This document shows positions 6,942 through 44,522 of a stretch of 64,000 nt of DNA, piece by piece; within the stretch, counting starts at the first letter, position 1; each line of letters opens with the position of its first letter. Made by a program: the position numbers and the translations under genes. The stretch lies in the NCBI RefSeq assembly GCF_022647325.1, contig NZ_CP071405.1, positions 1,178,001-1,242,000 on the forward strand, given 5' to 3'. The notes beneath the pieces were generated by a model. The model worked only from the letters and a program-made list of their open reading frames with translations. It had not been told where the DNA came from and made no database searches. Source of the stretch: Pantoea deleyi. Its GTDB lineage: Bacteria > Pseudomonadota > Gammaproteobacteria > Enterobacterales > Enterobacteriaceae.

Positions 6942-7976
6942 TTATTTCACGTCAATTTCGGGAATCGCCGACATGCCGACACGTAACTGGGCCAGATGCG
7001 GTTGGTCGCTATCCAGCACAATTTTCACCGGCAGACGCTGAACGACTTTAGTGTAGTTGCCTGTGGCGTTATCGGGCGCGATGGCAGAAAAAGTCGCTCC
7101 CGTCGCCGGAGCGATGCTGTCCACATGGCCGGTAAAAGTCAGGCCCGGCAGGGCATCCACCCGCACGCTGACCCGCTGGCCCGGACGCACGTCGCTGAGC
7201 TGAGTTTCAAGATAGTTCGCCGTAATGTAGGTCTGCTGCAGCGGCACAACCGCCAGCAGACGGGTGCCGGCTGAAACATAGGCGCCGGTGCGCACCGCGC
7301 GCTGACCCACCATCCCATCTACCGGCGCGGTGATCCGGGTATAGGAGAGATTCAGCCTGGCCTGATCGACGCTGGCCTGCGCTGCCGCGACATCCGCCTC
7401 AGCGGAACGCACCGCAGCCTGGAGCACGCCCACCTGTTTCACGGCCGACGCCAGCGCCGCCTGACTCTGATGCACGGCCGCCAGGGCGGAACGCTGGTTT
7501 GAGCTGGCTTTCTGCTGATCGTCGGCGGCCACCGTGCCGCTCTTATAGAGACGGTTATAGCGATCGGCGCTCTGTCCGGCATACTGCGCGGACGCCTGGC
7601 TCGCCGCCACGCTGGCTTTCTGCTGATTGATAACCGACTGCTGCTGTTCCAGCTGCGCCTGGCTGCTCAGCAGCTTCGCCTGACTCACCTGCAGATCGGC
7701 TTCTGCACTCTCCAGCGCCACCCGGTAATCGCGATCGTCCAGCGTCGCCAGCAGCTGGCCCGCCCTGACCGGCTGGTTATCCTGCACCTCAACGCGGCTG
7801 ACATACCCTGATACCCTGGGCGCAACCAGCGTGTAGTCGGCGTTGACGTAAGCGTCGTTGGTTCGATGATCGTTGCCGCTCATCAGTGACCAGACCACAA
7901 AGGCCAGGGCCAGTAACACCAGCAGCATCAGGCTCAGCAGCAGGGTTCTTCTCATTTCGAAAGCACGCATATTCAT
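6942..7976 (-). CDS. HlyD/EmrA-type membrane fusion protein
   Basis: Periplasmic adaptor of a tripartite efflux pump (344 aa). One N-terminal membrane segment (about residues 9-30, LLLSLMLLVLLALAFVVWSL) is followed by a first lipoyl half (SGYVSRVEVQDNQPVRAGQLLATLD). A long Ala/Gln-rich coiled-coil hairpin spans roughly 80-195. The second lipoyl half and beta-barrel follow (RITAPVDGMVGQRAVRTGAYVS). It overlaps the upstream MFS gene by 4 bp, so the two form one unit, like emrAB or emrKY. The substrate is unknown. E. coli carries emrKY in the same general chromosomal interval, but orthology is not claimed. Confidence 0.9.
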   Translation of the reverse strand: MNMRAFEMRRTLLLSLMLLVLLALAFVVWSLMSGNDHRTNDAYVNADYTLVAPRVSGYVSRVEVQDNQPVRAGQLLATLDDRDYRVALESAEADLQVSQAKLLSSQAQLEQQQSVINQQKASVAASQASAQYAGQSADRYNRLYKSGTVAADDQQKASSNQRSALAAVHQSQAALASAVKQVGVLQAAVRSAEADVAAAQASVDQARLNLSYTRITAPVDGMVGQRAVRTGAYVSAGTRLLAVVPLQQTYITANYLETQLSDVRPGQRVSVRVDALPGLTFTGHVDSIAPATGATFSAIAPDNATGNYTKVVQRLPVKIVLDSDQPHLAQLRVGMSAIPEIDVK

Positions 7977-15534: not shown

Positions 15535-16434
15535 TCAGGCAGTGATCCGGCGACGGCTTGCCGGCCAGCGGGCAAACATCACGACATTGCCCAGCAGAAT
15601 CATGACAAGGCCAGGGATGGCGCTGGCATGCCATTCATACCCTTCGTAACGGGTAGAGAGTGCCAGCGCCACCAGCGGAAAGAGAACCGTCGTATAGGCC
15701 GCCCGACTGGCACCAATCCGTCCCACCAGCGTAAAGTAAGCACCGAAGCCCACCACCGAACCCACGATAGCCAGATAGGTTAATGCCCCCAGCCACTGCA
15801 TATTCCAGGTCGGTTGCAGCGAAACACCCTGCAGCAGCGAAACCAGTGCCATCATCAGCGCGCCGTACAACATGCCGTAACTGTTGGTGGTCAGCACATC
15901 GCGTTGTAACCGCTGATGCCGCTGGCTGATCATATTGCCGAAGGAGAAGCCCAGCGTGCCCAGCGCACTCAGACCGATGCCCCACATCAGTCCGGCCGAG
16001 GCTTCCGTGCTGCGCAAATCGTGCCAGAACAGCGCAACGATTCCGGTCATCCCCAGTACGATGGCCGGGATCAGGCGTACGGAAGGGCGCTGACGGAAGA
16101 ACAGCCAGCCGTTGATGGCGTTATACATCACGGCCATCGAGAAAATGACCGATTCCAGACCGCTGCTGATATAGGCGGACGCAGAATAAAAGCAGACAAA
16201 ATTAAAGCCAAAGACGCAGCAGCCCTGTAGCAGACAAAAGAGGTGGTCCCGCAGCGTCAGCCTGTGAAGGCGCTTTATCAGTTTAAGCAGCAGTAACATC
16301 ACCAGCGAAGCCAGCAAAAAACGCCAGAATACCGCGACGGTTACGGCGCTCATGCCCGCAGACTGTTGCGCGTAGATCGCAATCCAGGTCGTTCCCCAGA
16401 TCAGCACGACAGAGAGATACAAAAACAGATTCAT
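15535..16434 (-). CDS. EamA/DMT-family inner-membrane transporter
   Basis: Drug/metabolite transporter with 10 predicted spans as two EamA repeats (299 aa from the chosen start). The start MNLFLYLSVVLIWGTTWIA is the canonical first span; GGAGGAG lies 10 bp upstream. The frame stays open farther upstream but adds an Arg/Gln-rich stretch unlike the family. FGNMISQRHQRLQRDV marks the linker and start of the second repeat. It is divergent from an araC-type gene; together they look like an efflux gene and its activator. The metabolite is unknown. Confidence 0.88.
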   Translation of the reverse strand: MNLFLYLSVVLIWGTTWIAIYAQQSAGMSAVTVAVFWRFLLASLVMLLLLKLIKRLHRLTLRDHLFCLLQGCCVFGFNFVCFYSASAYISSGLESVIFSMAVMYNAINGWLFFRQRPSVRLIPAIVLGMTGIVALFWHDLRSTEASAGLMWGIGLSALGTLGFSFGNMISQRHQRLQRDVLTTNSYGMLYGALMMALVSLLQGVSLQPTWNMQWLGALTYLAIVGSVVGFGAYFTLVGRIGASRAAYTTVLFPLVALALSTRYEGYEWHASAIPGLVMILLGNVVMFARWPASRRRITA

Positions 16435-16488
16435 CGCCGGGTTCTCCTCCATAAAACGCTGAGTCTGCGCGGAAAACCGCCTCTGCGC

Positions 16489-16525
16489 TTGCAACGGGTT
16501 GCGCCGGGTTTGCAAAATCTTGCGC
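16489..16525. promoter_or_regulatory. Tandem AraC-type operator between exporter and regulator
   Basis: Two copies of TTGCAA-N4-TTGCGC occur at 16489-16504 and 16510-16525, exactly 21 bp (two helical turns) apart. The four TTGC half-sites are phased at 10, 11 and 10 bp. This is the geometry expected for an AraC-family protein whose two helix-turn-helix motifs contact adjacent major grooves. The block lies 55 bp upstream of the exporter start and 87 bp upstream of the regulator start. Confidence 0.65.
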
Positions 16526-16612
16526 ATTTTTACCCTCTGTTCCGCTACGGTCTGTTTTCTGACGGGCGCACACCGTAAACTGGCACTCTGTTTGATCTGA
16601 ACTGACACGCCG

Positions 16613-17482
16613 ATGAGCCTATACCAGACCTTTGACATGCTGCAGCGCCACAAAGCCCAACTGCGTGATCAGGTGCAGCTTCAGAGCGGCATTCAGCTGG
16701 CAGCCTGGTTCAACAGCGGCGATCGCGTGACCAACCACAGCGATCACCATACGCTGAGCCTCTATGTGGCGGGCGGTTACGACACCTGGCATAAAACGCC
16801 TCATGGCTGGCGCAACGGCGGCGCGCCGGATCGTTTCTGTCTGATGCCCGCCGGTACAGAGTCCACCTGGGATCTGCGCGCCGATCTCGCCTTTGTGCAC
16901 CTCTATTGCAGTGAGGCGCATCTGCGGCAGCTGGCCGAACGGGTCTGGGATCGCAGTCCGGCGCAGTTAACGCTGGATGAGAAAATCTTTTCCACGGATG
17001 ACCGCATCACTCAACTCTATCGCCACTTTCTCCTGAGCAGTGACTGGCAACAGCCTGCCAGTCAGTTAATGCTGAGCAGCGCCTCCACGCTGCTGCTGAC
17101 CCATCTGTTACAGCACTACAGCGAAGTTAACTGGCAGCTGCCTCAGGTGCGGGGAGGGCTGGCACCGGCCGTATTACGCCGCGTCATCGATTTTATCGAT
17201 GCCCATCTTGACCAGCCTTTAACGCTCGCCGTGCTGGCACACGAAGCGGCGCTGAGTGAGTTTCATTTTGCCCGTATGTTCCGTCACACCACTGGTGAAG
17301 CGCCGCACCAGTTTGTGATGCGACGCCGTATGGATCGTGCGCGGGTGCTGCTTGAACGGCCCGAACTGACCCTGACCGCCATCGCCCTGCAGTGTGGTTT
17401 TCACTCCTCAGCCCACTTCAGCCACCGTTTCCGCCAGGTATACGGAACCACACCCTCTGCCTGTCGCCGGGCACTCCGCTAA
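16613..17482 (+). CDS. AraC-family transcriptional regulator
   Basis: A 289-residue regulator. The N-terminal ~170 residues form a cupin-like sensing domain (HTLSLYVAGGYDTWHK, RFCLMPAGTESTWDL). The C-terminal ~100 residues carry two helix-turn-helix motifs, LTLAVLAHEAALSEFHFARMFRHTTGEAPHQFV and LTLTAIALQCGFHSSAHFSHRFRQVYGTTPSACRR, the second matching the AraC signature. It is divergent from the EamA exporter and probably binds the TTGCAA-N4-TTGCGC sites between them. The inducer is unknown. Confidence 0.92.
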   Translation: MSLYQTFDMLQRHKAQLRDQVQLQSGIQLAAWFNSGDRVTNHSDHHTLSLYVAGGYDTWHKTPHGWRNGGAPDRFCLMPAGTESTWDLRADLAFVHLYCSEAHLRQLAERVWDRSPAQLTLDEKIFSTDDRITQLYRHFLLSSDWQQPASQLMLSSASTLLLTHLLQHYSEVNWQLPQVRGGLAPAVLRRVIDFIDAHLDQPLTLAVLAHEAALSEFHFARMFRHTTGEAPHQFVMRRRMDRARVLLERPELTLTAIALQCGFHSSAHFSHRFRQVYGTTPSACRRALR

Positions 17483-18011
17483 ACATCCTGTTCTGCGCAA
17501 CGTTTTTTCGCTTCTGCGGACAGGCTCAGACCTGATCGGGCGCATAAAAGCCGGGAGTGCAAAATAACCGTTTACCTCGGTCAGAAAAATTTTCTTATTA
17601 TCTGAGGATCATCTCTGCTGGCTTTTTTTCGCCTTAGACGCTATCAGTAATAAACGATGTAATTTCATTCTCATTTCGGATTGTCCGTAATCTAAGTGTT
17701 AAAAATTTACAGGTGCTGCGGTTTCTGATTTTAAAATATTAACCTTAATCAATTTAATCGGACTTTATGATGTATCTGCTATTTAATTCTATTGTGACGA
17801 TACAAACGTTTGTCTGTTAAACCTTTAGTGGTCCAGTTAGCTGGTATGGCAGCATTATCCTCCCTGATTTTTTTAGTATAAAAATCTAAGAATGTTCTCA
17901 TTGAAGTTTAATGATCTGTTTGTTTGATCTTTTGTCGATCATTGTTCTATTATCGCGGGCAGATAAATCGGGTCTGAAACATATCTGTGGCGATAAGAAA
18001 GGGATGATGAA
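17483..18011. other. AT-rich non-coding region upstream of type VI remnant
   Basis: A 529-bp stretch with no convincing gene. From about 17570 to 17990 it is strikingly AT-rich (runs such as TTTAAAATATTAACC) compared with its surroundings. This is typical of H-NS-silenced promoters of acquired secretion loci. I found no tRNA-end duplication or insertion-sequence repeat here. The left boundary of the former type VI island is probably within or just before it. Confidence 0.55.
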
Positions 18012-18767
18012 ATGGCTGAAAGTTTCCAGAATGAAGTGCCAAAGGCACGTATTAATTTAAAACTCGATCTCCATACTGGCGGCGCAGGGAAAAAAACTGA
18101 ACTACCACTTAAATTACTGGTTGCAGGTGATTTCAGTAATGGTCAGGACGCGTCGCAATTATCGGATCGGAAAAAGGTTAATGTAGATAAAAATAATTTT
18201 GACTCTGTTCTTTCCGAATATTCCCCAAAAGTTAACCTCACCGTTAAAAATACGCTGGCAGGCGACGGCAGCGAAGAAAACATCAGTCTGACATTCCGCA
18301 GCATCAGGGATTTTTCTCCGGAACAGATCTCCCGGCAGATACCCCAGCTGAAGGCGATGCTCTCCATGCGCAATCTGCTGCGTGATCTCAAGGCCAACCT
18401 GCTGGATGCCAATGCCGATGAAGGGCAGACACCACTGGCCACCATGGTGCAGGTTTACCAGCTCCGGGACCGCCAGAAGGTGGATGCGGCCGACTACCAG
18501 AAACTGCTGCGCGATGCGGATAACACCCTTAAAGAGGATATTGTCGTCAGCAAGTCTCTGCTGGTGATGCCCAGAGGCAGCGTGACGCTCAATATGCCGA
18601 TGAACGAAGAAGCGAAATTTGTGGCGGTGGTGGGGCTGTTTAATCGGCCGGATATCAAAAACAACACCTGGAAGCTGGTACTGAGCCGCGACGACCTCGA
18701 CCCGGACAAGCCGCGCACCATCCAGCTTAACAGCACCGGGCTGACCCTGGTTCCAGTGAAGGAGTAA
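18012..18767 (+). pseudogene. In-frame TssB-TssJ chimera, type VI secretion remnant
   Basis: The 251-residue product joins two proteins that are normally separate. Residues 1 to about 132 are the TssB (VipA) sheath subunit: the typical N terminus MAESFQNEVPKARINLKLDL, then SLTFRSIRDFSPEQI and LSMRNLLRDLKANLLD. From about residue 133 the sequence is the C-terminal part of the TssJ outer-membrane lipoprotein (MVQVYQLRDRQKVDAADYQ, SLLVMPRGSV, KFVAVVGLF, TWKLVLSRDDLDPDKPR). The end of TssB, everything between, and the TssJ signal and lipobox Cys are absent. A deletion within the locus, fusing near nt 18405-18420, explains this. Neither half should work in its normal place. Confidence 0.85.
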
Positions 18768-18771
18768 ACTC

Positions 18772-20781
18772 ATGGACACCACCCTCGATAACTGGCTGGC
18801 GCTGTTTGACGGGCAGACCCGCTACCGCTTTGAGATAAACGACAGCATCCTGAAGCCGGATGTGCTGAACCTCCACGGTCGGGAAGCGCTGAATGCACCG
18901 TTCAAATGGCGCATTGAGTTCACCACGCCGCAGAAAGGCATCAGTCGTCAGGATGCGATGCTGAAGTATGCCACCCTCAGCATGCTCAGTGGCAGAGTCG
19001 TGCAGGGTATCATTACCGGCTTTGAGGTCCTCAACGAAACCGTGGACCAGACGCATTTCGCCGTAACGCTTTCCTCGCGCCTGGCACTGCTTGCCCATAC
19101 CCGCCGCTGCGCGGTCTGGCAGAATGTTTCGGTACCGGAACTGGTGGCGCAGGTCCTGCGCAGCCACGGGCTGGAAGGAGCAGATTTTGAATTCCGGCTG
19201 GAACGGACTTACCCGGTCCGCGAACTGATCACCCAGTGGCGGGAAACGGACCTGCAGTTTATGCAGCGGATCCTTGCTGAGGTCGGTATCTGGTTCCGTA
19301 CCGGGGTCAACACGACCACCGGGCTGGATACGGTGACCTTCGCCGACAGCCAGTTGCAGTATCAGTTTGATGTACGCCTGCCTTACCGGGAACCGTCGGC
19401 GCTTTATGACGGCGCGGTGGACGCGGTGTGGGATGCCAGAGTGTGGCACCACACGGTGACCGGCCGCGTGGCCACCCGGGATTACAACTACCGCACCGCC
19501 AGTACGCCGATGGATGCACAGGTCAGCGTCAGAAACGAGGTGGCTACTACCGGAGAATGTTATCGCTATCTTGCCCCTTATCATGAAGCGGGCGATGAGA
19601 CCACCTCTGAGCCGGAAACCGAAAGCGGCGCCTTTTACGCACGCATTCAGCATGAACACGCCCTCAACAACGCGATACGCCTGCATCTCTTCAGCAATGC
19701 CAGTGACCTGACGCCGGGCATGGTGCTGGAAACCAGTGACAGTGACGTGCCGGAGCTGAAAGAGGGAATGGTGATTACACTCACCACCTTCCGCGCGGCC
19801 CGGGATACCCGTCTGCACGTTTCCGTGTGGGGCATGCCCTACAGCGAGCAGTTCTGCTTCAGACCAGAACCTGCGCCGCGCCCGCTTATTGCCGGCACGC
19901 TGACCGCCCGTGTCGAGAGCGACGAGAAGAATGCGCCGTATGCGCATCTCGATGAAACGGGCCGTTACCGGGTGAAGCTGGACTTCAGCCGCGAAGACGC
20001 AGAGCAGGGCTACAACTATCTGTGGATACGTCAGGCCAAACCGTACGCCGGGGAAACGTACGGTTGGCACACGCCGCTGATTGACGGTACGGAAGTGGGC
20101 ATTGCTTTTGACGGCGGTGACCCGGACCGACCCTACATCGCCTATGCGTTCCATGACTCTGAACATCCGGACGTGGTCACCCGGGACAACCGCAGCCAGA
20201 ATATCCTGCGCACCGCGGGCCAGAACGAACTGCGGATGGAAGACCTGCGCCAGAGCGAGCATATTGCGCTCAGTACCCCGTTCGGGACTACGGCGCTGAA
20301 TCAGGGACATATCGTTGATGCAGAGAACGAGCCACGGGGTACCGGCTTTGAGCTGCGCACCGATGAGTTCGGGGTCATACGTGTGGCAAAAGGGCTGCTG
20401 GTCACCGCCGATGGCAAAGTGAACGGCGAAGGCGATGTGCTGGATAGGGATGTGGCACTCCGGGAGATTGAGGCTGTCCGCGCCCAAATCGAGGGGCTTG
20501 CCAGCGCCACCCGCCAGGCGAAAGCCCTGGAAGCTGACATTGCCAGTCAGCAGGCGATGTTCGCCACACGGCTGAAAACTATCAATGAGATGATCCATTT
20601 CTCCGCACCCGAGGGGATGGCGTTTACCAGCGCAGAGCATCTGCAGCTGGCGGCCACGAAGAATGTCGCCCTGAACGCCGGTGGGGATACCCGTCGCGCT
20701 CACGCCCGAACAGCTGGAGGTCTTACAGCATCGCAACGCGCGACTGCAGGATATGACCGTGCAGACTGCGGAGCAGCTTGA
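18772..20781 (+). pseudogene. VgrG/TssI spike protein, truncated in its C-terminal region
   Basis: Begins 4 bp after the chimera stop with GGAG upstream. Residues 1 to about 640 are a good VgrG: the phage gp27-like N-terminal domain (YRFEINDSILKPDVLNLHGREALNAPFKW, LVAQVLRSHG, YPVRELITQWRETD), then the gp5-like OB-fold with LWIRQAKPYAGETYGWHTPLIDGTEV and GDPDRPYIAYAFHDSEHPDVV. The C-terminal DUF2345 segment starts (AFTSAEHLQLAATKNVALNAGGDT) but breaks near nt 20680. The last ~28 residues are an Arg/Ala-rich out-of-frame reading of the next fragment. The needle could still trimerise, but the tip is lost. Confidence 0.8.
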
Positions 20782-21217
20782 CCGGCTGGAGCGGCTGCCG
20801 CCTGACTGGACGATGAGCTACAGCCGGCAACTGGCAGAACAGGCACAGAAACTCTGGCCGGAACAGGCAAAACCGCTGATGCAACAGTGGCAGCGGCAAC
20901 GCAGCGCGGCTGCCCTGCCGACAGCGCAGCTCAACGGCTGGCATCAGGGGATGTCATCGTTACAGAAGCTCAGTGACAGACTTAACGGCCTCGACGAGCA
21001 GAAGGGAAAATATATGACGGTCAGCGAGCTGAAATCGGTAGTTTTTTCCACTGTGCAGGCATTCAATCAGTCGCTACCGGCCGAAGAGCAATTGCGGATA
21101 CTGTCGCAAACGCCAGCGGGGGAGCCTTTACCCGCAGCGGCCAGCGCCCGGCTGGAGATGCATCTGAAGCAACTGAACGCTCGCTACGCTGAAATTAAGC
21201 AGCGGGCAGCGAAATAG
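20681..21217 (+). pseudogene. Out-of-frame C-terminal fragment of an unidentified protein
   Basis: A 178-codon frame, shifted relative to vgrG, beginning at the VgrG break with VALTPEQLEVLQHRNARLQDM. It is helical and rich in Gln, Leu and Ala (QLAEQAQKLWPEQAKPLMQQW), ends AEIKQRAAK, and has normal codon use for this genome. The only start is a GTG without a proper ribosome-binding site inside vgrG, so it is most likely the 3' end of a gene once encoded farther downstream, such as a type VI effector or accessory protein, fused by deletion. I do not recognise the family. Confidence 0.55.
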
Positions 21218-21428
21218 AGCGCGAGCGTTCGTCGCGGGCCGGTGAGCGCCGCCACCGCTCTGCATGAGCCAGGCCATGCTGCGTATCTGCAGAATAATCC
21301 GCACTGTTTTTCAGAAGCGCGCGGGCAAGTCCGGAGATCGTTTTCGCTATGCCGGTAAGCAGTTACCTGGGAAGTTGATGCTTTGCAGAGATATGAAAGA
21401 GAGAAGGGCGGTGAAGGTCCGATCAGGA

Positions 21429-21503
21429 TGGTGTCCCCTGCAGGAATCGAACCTGCAACTAGCCCTTAGGAGGGGCTCGTTATATCCATTTAACTAAGAG
21501 GAC
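21429..21503 (-). tRNA. argW: tRNA-Arg (anticodon CCU)
   Basis: The 75-nt minus-strand sequence begins GTCCTCTTAGTTAAATGG and ends GGGGACACCA with an encoded CCA. The acceptor arms GTCCTCT and AGGGGAC pair with one G-U. The anticodon loop contains CTCCTAA with anticodon CCT, and the T arm GCAGGTTCGATTCCTGC is intact. It matches E. coli argW as I recall it. In E. coli this tRNA is an integration site for phage-type elements and lies beside yfdC, as here. Its 3' end faces the type VI remnant. Confidence 0.97.
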
Positions 21504-21513
21504 CGCGGCGCGC

Positions 21514-21543
21514 AGTATAGCGCAAACAGGCCGGGAGATTCAC
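21514..21543 (-). promoter_or_regulatory. Candidate argW promoter
   Basis: On the minus strand TATACT (21519-21514) lies 10 bp before the tRNA 5' end, followed by a GC-rich discriminator (GCGCGCCGCG) typical of stable-RNA genes. The -35 region (about 21537-21543, TGAATC) is weak. Confidence 0.5.
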
Positions 21544-21713
21544 TATATCGGTGTGCGTTTGCTCATTCCGCCAGCAATCGGGCCGTTAGCCTGAGCATGA
21601 CAACGCACGTTGTGGCGGGAATCGTCCTGTTAAGATGACGGTGCGTCGCGGGTTACGGAGGCGGGAACTCACGCCATAACGGCGTCAGGCTTTGCCGCGC
21701 CGTTAAATTCCCA

Positions 21714-21784
21714 GCACCAGCCTGAACGATCTGGCTGGTGCATCATCGGAAAAGCAGACAGGCCCGCTAAAGTCGCCTGTCTGC
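21714..21784 (-). terminator. Two hairpins downstream of yfdC
   Basis: The nearer hairpin has 10-bp arms GCAGACAGGC (21754-21763) and GCCTGTCTGC (21775-21784). On the minus strand it is followed by TTTT, so it fits a terminator for yfdC 8 bp after the stop. A second one, GCACCAGCC (21714-21722) and GGCTGGTGC (21733-21741), follows directly. Confidence 0.7.
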
Positions 21785-21791
21785 CAGATTG

Positions 21792-22727
21792 TTACTCTGC
21801 GTTTTCCTGCTCTTCGCGCTGACGGCGCTTCTCCTGCTTACGCTTCTCCGCCTTCGCCTTCGCCACGGCAGCTTCACTCATATCATTGCGGATCTGCGCG
21901 TGACTGATCAGGGCAAAAATCAGCGTGCCGCCGGTGATGTTGCCGAGCAGGGTCGGCAGGGCAAACGGCCAGAGGAACTCATGCCAGCTGATGCTGCCAC
22001 TGAACACCAGGTAGAGCACTTCCACCGATCCCACGACGATATGCGCCAGATCGCCCAGCGCAACCAGCCAGGTCATCATCACAATCACCAGCAGTTTGGC
22101 CCCGCCCGCAGACGGAAACATCCAGACCATGGTGGCGATAATCCAGCCGGAGATCACCGCATTGGCAAACATCTCGCCAGGCGTGTTCTCCATCACCTTC
22201 TTACTGATCTCCGTAAATGCCTGTCGGGTCGCCTCGTCGAATATCGGCATTTCATTGAAGGCCAGCGCACCCAGCGCTGTGCCAATCAGGTTACCCAGCA
22301 GCACAATCCCCCACAAACGCAACAGCAGGCCGCCATTACCCCAGGTTGGCTTGTGCATCACCGGTAACACGGCGGTTACGGTATTTTCGGTAAAGAGCTG
22401 CTGACGGGCCATGATGACGATGACAAAACCAAAGGTATAGCCGAGGTTCTCCAGCAGAAAGGCACCCGGCACGCCCTCGAGGTGCACCTGAAATATGCCT
22501 TTCGCCATTAACGAAGCGCTCATCGAGAGGCCCGCCGCAATCGCGGACCAGAGCAGCGCCATGCCGTCGCGCTCCAGCTCTTTTTCCCCATCCTGGCGGA
22601 TCTCTTCATGGATCGCTGCGGCTCGCGAGGGGAGCGCCTCCTCATCGACTTCGATGTCAGTGCCCTGTTCCTTCTCTTCACTGTCTACGTCGTTAGGACC
22701 CTGTTCATTACCTGATGAAGGCTTCAT
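21792..22727 (-). CDS. yfdC: FocA/NirC-family inner-membrane protein YfdC
   Basis: A 311-residue formate/nitrite-transporter-family channel, usually pentameric with six spans per chain. A long acidic, charged cytoplasmic N-tail (about residues 1-60, with DSEEKEQGTDIEVDEEALP) distinguishes YfdC from FocA. The membrane core contains LGNLIGTALGALAFNEMP and ISGWIIATMVWMFPSAGG. The C-terminal tail is Lys/Glu/Arg-rich. Its position next to argW and upstream of the mlaA region agrees with E. coli. The transported substrate is not established. Confidence 0.9.
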   Translation of the reverse strand: MKPSSGNEQGPNDVDSEEKEQGTDIEVDEEALPSRAAAIHEEIRQDGEKELERDGMALLWSAIAAGLSMSASLMAKGIFQVHLEGVPGAFLLENLGYTFGFVIVIMARQQLFTENTVTAVLPVMHKPTWGNGGLLLRLWGIVLLGNLIGTALGALAFNEMPIFDEATRQAFTEISKKVMENTPGEMFANAVISGWIIATMVWMFPSAGGAKLLVIVMMTWLVALGDLAHIVVGSVEVLYLVFSGSISWHEFLWPFALPTLLGNITGGTLIFALISHAQIRNDMSEAAVAKAKAEKRKQEKRRQREEQENAE

Positions 22728-22970
22728 ATTTTCTCCTGGTGATAGTGCTGTCGCGTTATAAGCGTAGCCCTTTTTTATTTGCCGATAAGGTTACGGCTGA
22801 TGCGAATAAGCGTAACAACCTTTTTCGGAACTGCATTTTTATTCAGAGGCCCGACGATACCGCACGAATAAGCCGCTGAGAGCAAAACTGAGCGGTAGCT
22901 CACACTTCGGCCCACAGCAACATTGTGGTAATATCCCGGCCACTTTTTAGCTGGTGCGATTCCCCCCTCA

Positions 22971-23588
22971 ATGTTGGAAATCATTACGCTCACTTGTGCT
23001 TACGACGAACGTTCGCTGTTCCGGCGGCTCTCATTCCGCGTCTCCGCAGGTGACATTGTGCAGATTGAAGGGCCTAACGGCGCGGGCAAGACGTCGCTGC
23101 TGCGCCTGCTGGCGGGCCTGAGCCGGCCCGAAGCGGGTGAAATACGCTGGCAGCAGCAGCCGATTCTGCGGCAGCGTGAAACCTGGCATCAGGCGATGCT
23201 CTACCTGGGTCATCATCCGGGCATCAAAGGCGTGCTCACGCCGCTGGAAAATCTGCGCTTCTATCATCCCGACTGCAGTGACGCGCAGATCTTCGCGGCG
23301 CTGGAGGCGGTAGATCTCACGGGGGAGGAAGAGGTGCCGGTCAGCCGTTTATCGGCGGGGCAGCAGCGTCGCGTGGCGCTGGCGAGACTCTGGCTCAGCC
23401 GCGCGCGCATCTGGATCCTCGACGAGCCGCTCACCGCCATCGACAAGGCGGGTGTTGAGACATTAATAGCGCAATTTACCCGCCATGCCGATAACGGGGG
23501 CGCCGTGATCCTGACCACCCATCAGGATCTGCCCGCAATGGCGGCGCGGGTGCGCAAAATACGTCCTGGCGATGAGGAGGCTGACTGA
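22971..23588 (+). CDS. ccmA: Cytochrome c maturation ATPase CcmA
   Basis: ATP-binding subunit (205 aa) of the CcmABCD complex, which uses ATP to release holo-CcmE from CcmC in System I cytochrome c biogenesis. Walker A is [11 protein letters not shown] near residue 35, the ABC signature is [12 protein letters not shown], and Walker B is [14 protein letters not shown]. It is the first gene of a nine-gene operon; the stop overlaps the ccmB start (TGATG). The promoter should lie in the 243-bp gap shared with divergent yfdC. Confidence 0.96.
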
Positions 23589-24247
23589 TGCTGTTTCGCC
23601 TGATCCAGCGTGAGCTGCGCATCGCCTTTCGCGGCGGAGCGGATGTGATAAATCCGCTCTGGTTTTTCCTGATTGTGATCACGCTGTTTCCGCTGGGCAT
23701 TGGCCCCGATCCGCAGCAGCTGGCGCGCATCGCACCGGGCGTCGCCTGGGTGGCCGCCCTGCTGGCGTCGCTGCTGGCGCTGGAACGGCTGTTTCGTGAC
23801 GACTTCAGCGACGGTTCGCTGGAGCAACTGGCGCTGCTGCCGACGCCGCTGCCGGTCATCGTCATCGGTAAGGTAGTGGCGCACTGGCTGGTGACCGGCG
23901 TACCGCTGATCGTCCTGTCGCCGCTGGCCGCGCTGCTGCTGTCGCTGGATATGAACGGCTGGTGGGCGATGGCATTAACGCTGCTGCTTGGTACACCGAC
24001 GCTCAGTTTTCTCGGGGCGATTGGGGTAGGGCTGACCGTAGGCTTACGGCGCGGCGGCGTGCTGCTGAGCCTGCTGGTACTGCCGCTGGCGATTCCGGTT
24101 CTGATCTTCGCCAGCGCGGCGATGGAGGCGGCCAGTCAGGGATTGCCCCTCGGCGGTTATCTGGCGATTCTCGGCGCGATGCTGCTGGGCAGCGCCACAC
24201 TCTCGCCGTTTGCCACGGCGGCGGCGTTACGCATTACTTTGCAATAA
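23588..24247 (+). CDS. ccmB: Heme exporter subunit CcmB
   Basis: Inner-membrane subunit (219 aa, about six spans) that couples the CcmA ATPase to CcmC. It opens FRLIQRELRIAFRGGADVINPLWFF and contains FRDDFSDGSLEQLALLP, both characteristic of CcmB. It is translationally coupled to ccmA by a one-base stop/start overlap. A 68-bp gap to ccmC is the longest within the operon. Confidence 0.95.
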   Translation: MLFRLIQRELRIAFRGGADVINPLWFFLIVITLFPLGIGPDPQQLARIAPGVAWVAALLASLLALERLFRDDFSDGSLEQLALLPTPLPVIVIGKVVAHWLVTGVPLIVLSPLAALLLSLDMNGWWAMALTLLLGTPTLSFLGAIGVGLTVGLRRGGVLLSLLVLPLAIPVLIFASAAMEAASQGLPLGGYLAILGAMLLGSATLSPFATAAALRITLQ

Positions 24248-24315
24248 CCGGTGTTGCGGTCACGCGCGCGAAAGACGCGGCAACCCCTTTTTTATCGTTA
24301 ATGTGAGCACTTGAT

Positions 24316-25056
24316 ATGTGGAAAGCGTTACATCAGCTGGGCAGGCCCGAACGCCTCTATCAGTTGTCGGGGCGACTGGTGCCCTGGTTCGCCATTTCCG
24401 GGCTGGCGGCGTTGCTGCTGGGCTGGGTCTGGGGATTTGGATTTGCACCCGCTGACTATCAGCAGGGCGACAGTTTTCGCATTATGTACATTCATGTGCC
24501 CGCCGCGATGTGGTCGATGGGCATCTACGCTTCTATGGCCATCGCCGCTTTTATCGGGCTGGTGTGGCAGCTGAAAATGGCCGATCTGGTCTCTGCCGCG
24601 ATGGCACCGGTGGGCGCGGTCTTTACCTTTATTGCGCTGGTCACCGGAGCCGCCTGGGGTAAGCCGATGTGGGGCACCTGGTGGATCTGGGATGCACGGC
24701 TGACTTCGGAGCTGGTGCTGCTGTTCCTCTATATGGGCGTGATTGCGCTCTATCACGCGTTTGACGATCGCCGCACCGCAGGCCGGGCCGCGGGCGTCCT
24801 GATTCTGGTTGGCGTGGTGAATCTGCCCATCATTCACTTCTCCGTGCAGTGGTGGAATACCCTGCACCAGGGGTCGTCGGGGATTCTCCAGCAGGCGATC
24901 GCGCCGGTGATGCGCACGCCGCTGCGCTGGGCCATCATCGGTTACCTGCTGCTGTTCGTGACGCTGACCCTGATGCGACTGCGTAACCTGATTCTGTTAA
25001 CGGAACGCCATCGTCCCTGGGCGCTGACGGTGGCAAAACGGGGAGAGCAGAGATGA
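24316..25056 (+). CDS. ccmC: Heme delivery protein CcmC
   Basis: Six-span inner-membrane protein of the heme-handling family (246 aa) that loads heme onto CcmE. The tryptophan-rich WWD motif on the periplasmic side is clear: WGKPMWGTWWIWDARLTSELVLL (about residues 114-136). The flanking heme-ligand histidines are probably in IMYIHVPAAMWS and IIHFSVQWWNTLHQG. It overlaps ccmD by 4 bp. Confidence 0.95.
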   Translation: MWKALHQLGRPERLYQLSGRLVPWFAISGLAALLLGWVWGFGFAPADYQQGDSFRIMYIHVPAAMWSMGIYASMAIAAFIGLVWQLKMADLVSAAMAPVGAVFTFIALVTGAAWGKPMWGTWWIWDARLTSELVLLFLYMGVIALYHAFDDRRTAGRAAGVLILVGVVNLPIIHFSVQWWNTLHQGSSGILQQAIAPVMRTPLRWAIIGYLLLFVTLTLMRLRNLILLTERHRPWALTVAKRGEQR

Positions 25057-42515: not shown

Positions 42516-44522
42516 CTAGACCGCTTTTCCCTTCAGTAATTTCCTGACCCAGTAACGATTCGGATTGAGCGCCGCCAGCGTCGCAGCATCCAGCGGCTGC
42601 GGTTCACCCGCCAGCTGGGCGGCCAGCACTTCGGCCACCAGCGGTGCACTGCACAGGCCGCGCGATCCCAGCGCACCAGCAATAAACAAGCCCGGCAGAT
42701 CGGGCGCTTCAGCGACCTCACCGCCGCGGGCCAGCGTGGCCGGCAGATCGGCATACTGCGCCAGCGTTGCCGCATAATCGGGCACGCTGCCGACCATCGG
42801 CAGGTGATCGCGCGACGCACAGCGCACACCCATTCTCGCTTCGCCGCCACTGACATCGACGCCTCTGGCCCACTCGCCGTCCGGCAGGCAGTGCACCAGC
42901 CGACTGCGGTTCTCCTGCTGATCCGTCTCGCGATAATCGGTGGTGGTCTCGCCCCGGCGGTAGCTGGCGCCAATGCAGTGGGTGCCAAACTGCGGGCTGA
43001 CAGGCGTCAGATAGCCGTCGTAACAGAGCACCGTCTGCAGCGCATCCAGGCCGGGCGTGGAGGGAACGTGACTGACCTGACCGGCCACCGCATAGGCTGG
43101 CAGGGGGGCGCTCTGGATAAAGTCAGCAATGGTGTGACCGTTCGTCAGCACCACGCTGGTGTGGCGAACCGCCGGACGATCGCGGAAAGTGAGCGTCCAC
43201 TGCTCATCCTCGCGCGACAGCGTCTCGACGCGGTGCAGCCAGTGAATGCGCAGGCCCTGAGTTTCGCCATAGGCCAGGATCGCCGTCGTCAGTTCGACCG
43301 GTGAAAGCCAGCCGCCCTGCGGATAGAAAATACCGTCATGGCCATGTTTAACATTCGCCAGCCTTTCTGCCTCGGCGACATCGACGTGATGGGCGATCGT
43401 CTCTGGCAGCCCCATCGCCAGCATCTTCCCGATCTTTTTACGGCTCTTCTCATCCCAGCCCAGTTGCAGCACGCCACTCCAGGCATGTTCATAGCTGACG
43501 TTTAGCTGGTCGTAGAGCCTGCGGGCGAAGCCAAAGGCCGCCGGGAAAAAGGTCGCCAGGGCCGGATCGTGCTGGTTGAGAAGCGGGTAGAGCGCCCCCT
43601 GACGGTTACCGGAGGCGTTCAGCGCGGGCGCTTCATCGGCACAGTAGAGCGTTACCCGCCAGCCGCGACGCAGCAGCGCCAGCGCCAGGGTCGCACTGGC
43701 AACGCCACCGCCGATCAGGGCTACTTCGCGCTCTTCAGCGGCGCGGCGGTGATACCACGGCTGCGGGCTGGGCAGTGCAGGCGCATCCTGCAATGTGCCG
43801 CACAGCATCTCGCGTTTCGGACCAAATCCTTTGCGGCGGATGACGTCAAAGCCCGCCTGCTGCAGCCCGCGCCGCACAAAACCGGCGGCGGTGAAGGTGG
43901 CGAAGGTCGCCTCCGGCCGCGCCAGCCTTGCCATCATGCCGAACAGCTCCGGCGTCCACATGTCGGGGTTCTTCGACGGGGCAAACCCGTCCAGGAACCA
44001 GGCATCCACCTGGCGATGCAGACTTTCATCCAGCTGACTCATCAGCGCGTTAATATCCCCCAGCCAGAGATCCAGCGTGATGCGACCGCCATCAAACAGC
44101 AGCCGCTGACAGCCGGGCAGGGCAGCAGGCCACTGCGCCTGCAGCGCCCCGGCCCAGTGTGCCAGTTCAGGCCAGTGCTGATGGGCCGCCGCCAGATCTT
44201 CGCGGGTCAGGGGGAATTTTTCGAAACTGATGAAGTGCAGTCGTCTGAGAGGGGCATCCGGCTGTTCACGCTGAAAGGCGTCGAACGCCTGCCACAGCGT
44301 CAGGAAATTGAGACCGGTGCCAAAACCGCTCTCCGCCACGACCAGGAGATCGCGCGGATGCGCAGCAAAACGCTGGGGAAAACCGTTCCCGCCAAGGAAT
44401 ACGTAGCGCGTCTCTTCCAGACCGTTGTCATTAGAGAAATAGACGTCATCAAACGCTCGGGAAACAGGTGTACCCTGTTCATTCCAGTTTAGCTGTGCAT
44501 GTTCAACCGATGTTAATTTCAC
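42516..44522 (-). CDS. mnmC: Bifunctional tRNA wobble-uridine modification enzyme MnmC
   Basis: Two-domain enzyme (668 aa; E. coli 668) finishing mnm5s2U34. The N-terminal methyltransferase (about 1-245) has [17 protein letters not shown] and [22 protein letters not shown]. The C-terminal FAD-dependent oxidase (about 260-668) begins with dinucleotide motif [21 protein letters not shown] and ends with [21 protein letters not shown]. It is divergent from fabB with a 154-bp gap, as in E. coli. Confidence 0.96.

Follow-up and report, generated by a model that had tools for sequence, protein, structure and literature searches.

Chimeric frame and remnant locus

How the type VI secretion system (T6SS) sheath subunit TssB came to be joined to the lipoprotein TssJ in one open reading frame, and whether the product is anything other than a scar, is the question raised by this locus of Pantoea deleyi, which was analysed within a window of 64,000 nucleotides (the whole stretch of DNA under study, to which positions refer unless another stretch is named). 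The frame at 18012–18767 is translated into 251 residues with zero internal stops and consists, as a first-pass annotation had claimed from the letters, of TssB residues 1–132 followed in frame by TssJ, which begins at about its residue 58. In DNA alignments, similarity to tssB of the closest relative identified (a genome here called G042) stops at 18407, and similarity to tssJ of G014 and G020 sets in at 18410. The TssB part is too short, ending at residue 132 as compared with 165 residues in G042 TssB (full length about 165). When the two parts were set against their families, as had been proposed in that annotation, each scored above cut-off. In Pfam, T6SS_VipA/TssB (PF05591) matches residues 7–135 with 155 bits (cut-off 24) and T6SS-SciN/TssJ (PF12790) residues 132–241 with 85.2 bits (cut-off 27); in NCBIfam, TIGR03358 (TssB) covers residues 4–134 and TIGR03352 (TssJ) residues 132–229, the latter with a score of 55.6 against a cut-off of 31.6. 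No single family in Pfam or NCBIfam spans the entire 251-residue frame, and the possibility that it represents one known family can be set aside. Since the family models score both halves above cut-off, automatic annotation may count such chimeric frames as TssB or TssJ. The frame is devoid of cysteine, and the TssJ part thus has no lipobox cysteine. A ribosome-binding site ahead of the chimera was read by eye. In a whole-chimera search, residues 1–251 were matched in this genome alone, i.e., in one of 61 genomes of the genus Pantoea. A row from G016 covering chimera residues 1–154 was rejected as a second chimera, being a normal TssB.

Together with the pieces that follow it, the chimera forms a remnant of four T6SS pieces, tssB'-'tssJ-vgrG'-'vasL (Table 1). 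These four alone were found at the locus, where the full T6SS core gene set is missing, and where the cognate tssC beside tssB is absent. Join 1 shares at most one or two bases in an alignment by eye, and no repeats around the joins were found that account for either of them. A cleanly deleted T6SS cluster had been proposed earlier; the locus is indeed a remnant of such a cluster, but the deletion is not clean: both joins are non-homologous, and the piece between them differs in ancestry from either edge. The earlier account had overlooked the second join, between vgrG and vasL, and the separate ancestry of the middle piece. In a plasmid search with 16000–22800, among the 20 matches listed of 26 records, nine from Pantoea fall on tssB only, at about 80%, and the remaining ones fall on the tRNA stretch. 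Genes of this site presumably go by the labels YfdC, CcmA and argW.

Table 1. Features of the remnant locus and its flanks, with positions in the window
Feature	Position	Strand	Description	Evidence
AraC-family regulator	16613..17482	+	left flank, vertical (G042-like)	Pfam HTH_18/HTH_AraC
tssB'	18012..18407	+	TssB residues 1-132, including TssC-binding helix 103-131; last 33 residues gone	92.7% DNA to G042 tssB
join 1	18408..18410	+	in frame, non-homologous, little or no microhomology by eye	junction alignment with G042, G014, G020
'tssJ	18411..18767	+	TssJ from residue 58 of 175; without signal peptide and lipobox	91.2% DNA to P. deserta tssJ
vgrG' frame	18772..20781	+	GPD, base_V, Vgr, weak DUF2345 start (below cut-off), then about 30 out-of-frame residues	
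join 2, vgrG/vasL	20676..20689	+	out of frame	short imperfect similarity by eye
'vasL	20687..21217	+	VasL residues 300-475 (last 176)	Pfam VasL 141.5 bits; 80% amino acid to G042
tRNA-Arg (CCT)	21429..21503	-	right edge of site	ARAGORN
formate/nitrite-transporter family gene	21792..22727	-	right flank, vertical	Pfam Form_Nir_trans

Full gene set in the nearest relative found

Between equivalent flanks, G042 carries a full T6SS gene set of about 35 kb (tssB at 7678 and the end of vasL at 42957 in a stretch of 60 kb), comprising TssB, C, K, L, OmpA/TagL, Hcp, ClpV, VgrG, TssM, A, F, G, J, E, and VasL, where TssG and TssJ are named from their matches. The suggested comparison with a Pantoea genome that keeps the full cluster is thereby available at the same flanks, and the locus in P. 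deleyi, with joined truncated core genes where G042 has the full set, is a T6SS deletion remnant. According to a published account, the T6SS-3 loci of Pantoea and Erwinia are without PpkA, PppA, and FHA genes, contain variable regions linked to vgrG, and were perhaps acquired horizontally (PMC3235180). The G042 cluster fits this description by gene content, not by tree, whereas the window locus retains four fragments only.

Ancestry of the pieces

The left piece (16001–18407) is 87% and the right piece (20676–25000) 90% identical to G042 in DNA. The middle piece (18410–20689) resembles instead E. psidii (88.1% DNA), Mixta tenebrionis (87.5%), P. deserta (86.8%), Ca. P. haifensis (86.2%), and Cedecea davisae (85.6%), and this core type is thus shared with Erwinia, Mixta, Cedecea, and further Pantoea. 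The TssJ encoded by G042 has just 48% identity to the TssJ part in the window. Among this genome, P. deserta, Ca. P. haifensis, Mixta, and E. psidii (where tssB and tssJ are on separate contigs), the tssB pieces are 71–77% identical (Mixta to E. psidii 91%) as compared with 87–91% for the tssJ pieces; Cedecea davisae, with its two loci more than 1 Mb apart, was left out of this comparison. The synonymous distances from this genome to G020 and G014 are 1.8 and 2.1 for tssB, and 0.46 and 0.31 for tssJ. Because tssJ is much closer than tssB among these genomes, edge and core of these clusters have separate histories. The T6SS core thus passes from one species or genus to another, with the tssB edge remaining in place, and the chimera combines a vertically inherited tssB with a horizontally spread tssJ. 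In G014 and G020, VgrG and its tail are read in separate frames, whereas in the window the weak start of DUF2345, which we take to be the COG4253 tail of VgrG in the account of T6SS-3, is in frame.

Proposed origin of the scar

Based on the anatomy of the locus and the ancestry of its pieces, we consider it very probable that the scar is a young deletion of a T6SS cluster, in which a mosaic cluster underwent two internal deletions and a join came to be in frame by chance. The cluster would once have stood between the AraC-family gene and the flank with tRNA-Arg and the formate/nitrite transporter, and its ancestor would have combined native tssB and vasL edges with a core of E. psidii/P. deserta type (...tssJ-vgrG...) obtained by horizontal exchange. 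A first internal deletion with non-homologous ends would have removed about 26–30 kb between tssB and tssJ, as judged from their distance in G020 and G014, and a second, likewise with non-homologous ends, would have removed the segment from the vgrG tail to vasL. Join 1 would have been in frame by chance (about one in three), placing a 251-residue TssB'-'TssJ behind the native tssB start. The protein, if made, should be cytoplasmic because the TssJ signal peptide is lost, and would most likely be unstable and without function because the cognate TssC is gone. The two-step order is one that we infer, since an intact mosaic ancestor with a G042-like tssB and an E. psidii-type tssJ was not seen among the clusters, and the core may instead have changed in the G042 lineage rather than in this one.

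The middle piece, with an ancestry unlike both edges, and the two non-homologous joins could also result from a one-step replacement, where 2.3 kb of foreign tssJ-vgrG was joined illegitimately to the resident tssB and vasL, removing the cluster at once. We regard such an event as unlikely. Clusters with a species-specific tssB and a common core exist, so that nothing beyond internal deletions in an ordinary mosaic cluster is required; moreover, partial clusters are frequent at the site. The stepwise deletion of a mosaic cluster would illustrate a way in which T6SS clusters die, with the core swapped between genera, the edges kept, and internal deletions leaving readable chimeras.

Age and selection

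Of the differences between the TssB piece and its counterpart in G042, 2 are nonsynonymous and 27 synonymous, which gives a dN/dS of 0.017 at a dS of 0.38 (flanking genes 0.30 and 0.27). Both nonsynonymous changes are assigned to the branch of this genome, and a simple Poisson model, with half of the dS assigned to this branch, disfavours a phase of neutral drift longer than about 11% of it. The dN/dS values of the TssJ piece (0.05–0.12) and the VgrG piece (0.07–0.11) equal those of their relatives, although the VgrG piece is an imperfect neutral control because it retains a start of its own and might be in use. For the VasL piece, the frame of which is still open, dN/dS is 0.23 against G042, as compared with 0.06–0.36 for other pairs with usable dS and 0.19–0.22 for pairs at similar distance. 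Clear relaxation is not evident here, and some relaxation may have taken place; the VasL piece is a weak control because several of its comparators sit in decayed clusters.

Relaxation is also absent from the VgrG piece and from the TssJ half, now devoid of its export signal, and youth therefore accounts for the intactness of the frame with no need to invoke selection on TssB. A young age of the scar is thus probable, and the recent deletion claimed in the first-pass annotation agrees with the lack of relaxed selection in the TssB, TssJ, and VgrG pieces. Its other suggestion, that the truncated TssB is still selected, is unsupported, because the TssJ and VgrG pieces are no more relaxed than their relatives, and in the VasL piece, still an open frame, dN/dS is unremarkable.

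Decayed clusters and chimeras in related genomes

Across the genus, as seen in stretches from part of the 61 genomes, the interval from the AraC-family gene to the transporter gene contains a full cluster, a partial one, or none. Partial remnants are present at the same flanks in P. agglomerans (G001), G002, G049, G057, and G004, where the G004 remnant has tssC cut at residue 250. In P. agglomerans NBRC 102470 (G001), an in-frame chimera of TssC residues 1–54 and the C-terminal part of TssF occupies 222 codons at the same chromosomal site (L045:10523-11188), its short TssC part being detected by tblastn only. Away from the site, a single frame of 283 codons in G015 reads through TssK(1-131)::TssM(1020-1075)::TssG(230-320) and yields three Pfam matches (L163:12354-13202); it is situated behind a near-full-length tssB match and a full-length tssC match. 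Further in-frame chimeras are TssC::TssG in G046, OmpA::VasL in Enterobacter vonholyi, TssC::TssK in G284, TssC::TssL in G505, and TssM::TssG in G467. Pfam matches to every part were obtained for six of the seven chimeric frames scanned, the TssG part in G046 remaining below the gathering score. In Enterobacter chuandaensis, an 855-codon frame (L089:14072-16639) runs through pieces of OmpA/TagL, ClpV, and VasL; a second ClpV piece is out of frame, after which the VasL frame is regained. In G032 (L143-L144), about half of the T6SS genes and the adjoining transporter gene are split over at least two frames, which reflects either a decaying genome or a poor assembly.

The TssB-TssJ fusion had been called unusual, but this does not hold for it as a kind, since relatives contain other in-frame chimeras of T6SS core genes. 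All have truncated core genes of a decayed cluster in one open frame, but they involve different gene pairs, and none is TssB::TssJ. The object belongs to an ordinary kind, namely a T6SS deletion scar, probably young, with a join that is probably in frame by chance, here with a mosaic history. Among the papers listed, none on T6SS gene fusions or in-frame scars was found, as judged by titles and the openings of abstracts. Comparable remnants are described for E. coli ST410, with deletions of 21.0 kb between rhsG and tssM, where no mobile element is involved, and of 19.8 kb between tssD1 and tssA2 (PMC10711316). As in the window, a large internal T6SS deletion has joined remnant genes; in contrast to the window, which has an in-frame join and a middle piece of separate ancestry, the available part of that report mentions no in-frame chimera.

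Proportion of in-frame joins

In a first set of joins, 11 of 19 are in frame (one-sided p 0.024 against 1/3), and 10 of 17 when the pair in the window is taken out (p 0.027). This set was gathered with one automated rule from 160 stretches, giving 20 rows, of which ClpV/VgrG in G032 was dropped as a case of normal neighbours. The stretches overlap, were picked through matches to TssB, TssJ, TssC, or VasL together with odd frame lengths, cover a part of the odd rows listed, and constitute a non-random sample. Weak joins are included, namely TssB/Hcp in G057 (out of frame), TssC/VgrG in L171 (in frame; second part 30% identity), and VgrG/VasL in L175 (in frame; about 40%), whereas TssG/TssJ in G001 (out of frame) and OmpA/ClpV in L089 (in frame), seen with an earlier reference set only, were not counted.

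In a replication set from Enterobacter, 4 of 8 joins are in frame (p 0.26), which is not significant alone, and one of these (ClpV/TssG in L201) contains a stop. The set has 9 rows in 16 stretches, with L206 dropped because it is the L083 join counted before; odd rows such as G451 and G475, among others, lie outside it. Five of the stretches (L199-L202 and L207) were added, in deviation from the plan set beforehand, for the proximity of tssC and vasL, at a point when the distances were known and the joins not yet seen, and contribute two in-frame joins of five, while the originally planned rule gives two of three. Pooled, 15 of 27 joins are in frame as compared with 9 expected (one-sided p 0.014), in a test that is post hoc and in which joins within a single genome are not independent.

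An in-frame share above one in three at such scars fits pure chance less well, but the excess is suggestive, a lead and not a result. It could mean that decaying T6SS clusters keep open chimeric frames above chance, perhaps through loss of out-of-frame joins by polarity or harmful tails, with TssB-TssJ as one survivor that possibly touches the other T6SS of this genome; we find this improbable at present. Whether joins in decaying clusters are in frame in more than one case in three can be tested on large genome sets.

Possible interference with the second T6SS

A further alternative, in line with the decoy mentioned in the first-pass annotation, is that the chimera is kept as an interfering TssB, whose helix would engage TssC of the second T6SS and thereby poison or tune the assembly of the sheath. 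In EAEC TssB1, helix 103-131 is required for TssC binding, and Ile110 and Leu117 are reported as important (PMC3840085). In the chimera this helix is whole, with the break falling one residue past it, and the positions Ile110 and Leu117 are kept in EAEC TssB1 numbering. With the TssC-binding helix intact, interference with the second T6SS is possible, though unsupported. The TssB half is also highly conserved, and A-B homologues from different bacteria are reported to bind each other (PMC3656785). The second T6SS of this genome (G000:C1:2366941-2389353) includes an FHA-type (TagH) protein, and 8 of 10 scanned proteins at that locus match T6SS families (TssG, TssF, TagH, TssD, just below cut-off, TssC, TssM, TssK, and TssJ).

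Several observations speak against such a role, which we judge to be very unlikely. Identity to the second system is low: its TssC, the only one found in this genome, is 45% identical, and its TssB, the only other match in a protein search of the genome (6 of 6 candidates scored), 33%. Conservation is no pointer to TssB in particular, given that relaxation is likewise missing in the VgrG piece and the TssJ half, and the chimera occurs in one of 61 genomes. Furthermore, TssB-sfGFP is reported to be stabilised by TssC (PMC3840085). The best stretches against ten solved TssB-type sequences end at chimera residues 123–137; an AF2 model of the chimera (16 TssB and 5 TssJ part-rows) is uninformative, with a mean pLDDT of 34.2.

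Finally, that an assembly artefact created join 1 is hardly credible, given that no second copy of the pieces was found in the genome (the protein search above, and a DNA search with one place reported among the best 4 of 88 candidates), that the region sits inside a contig of 3.99 Mb, and that other assemblies carry similar scars.
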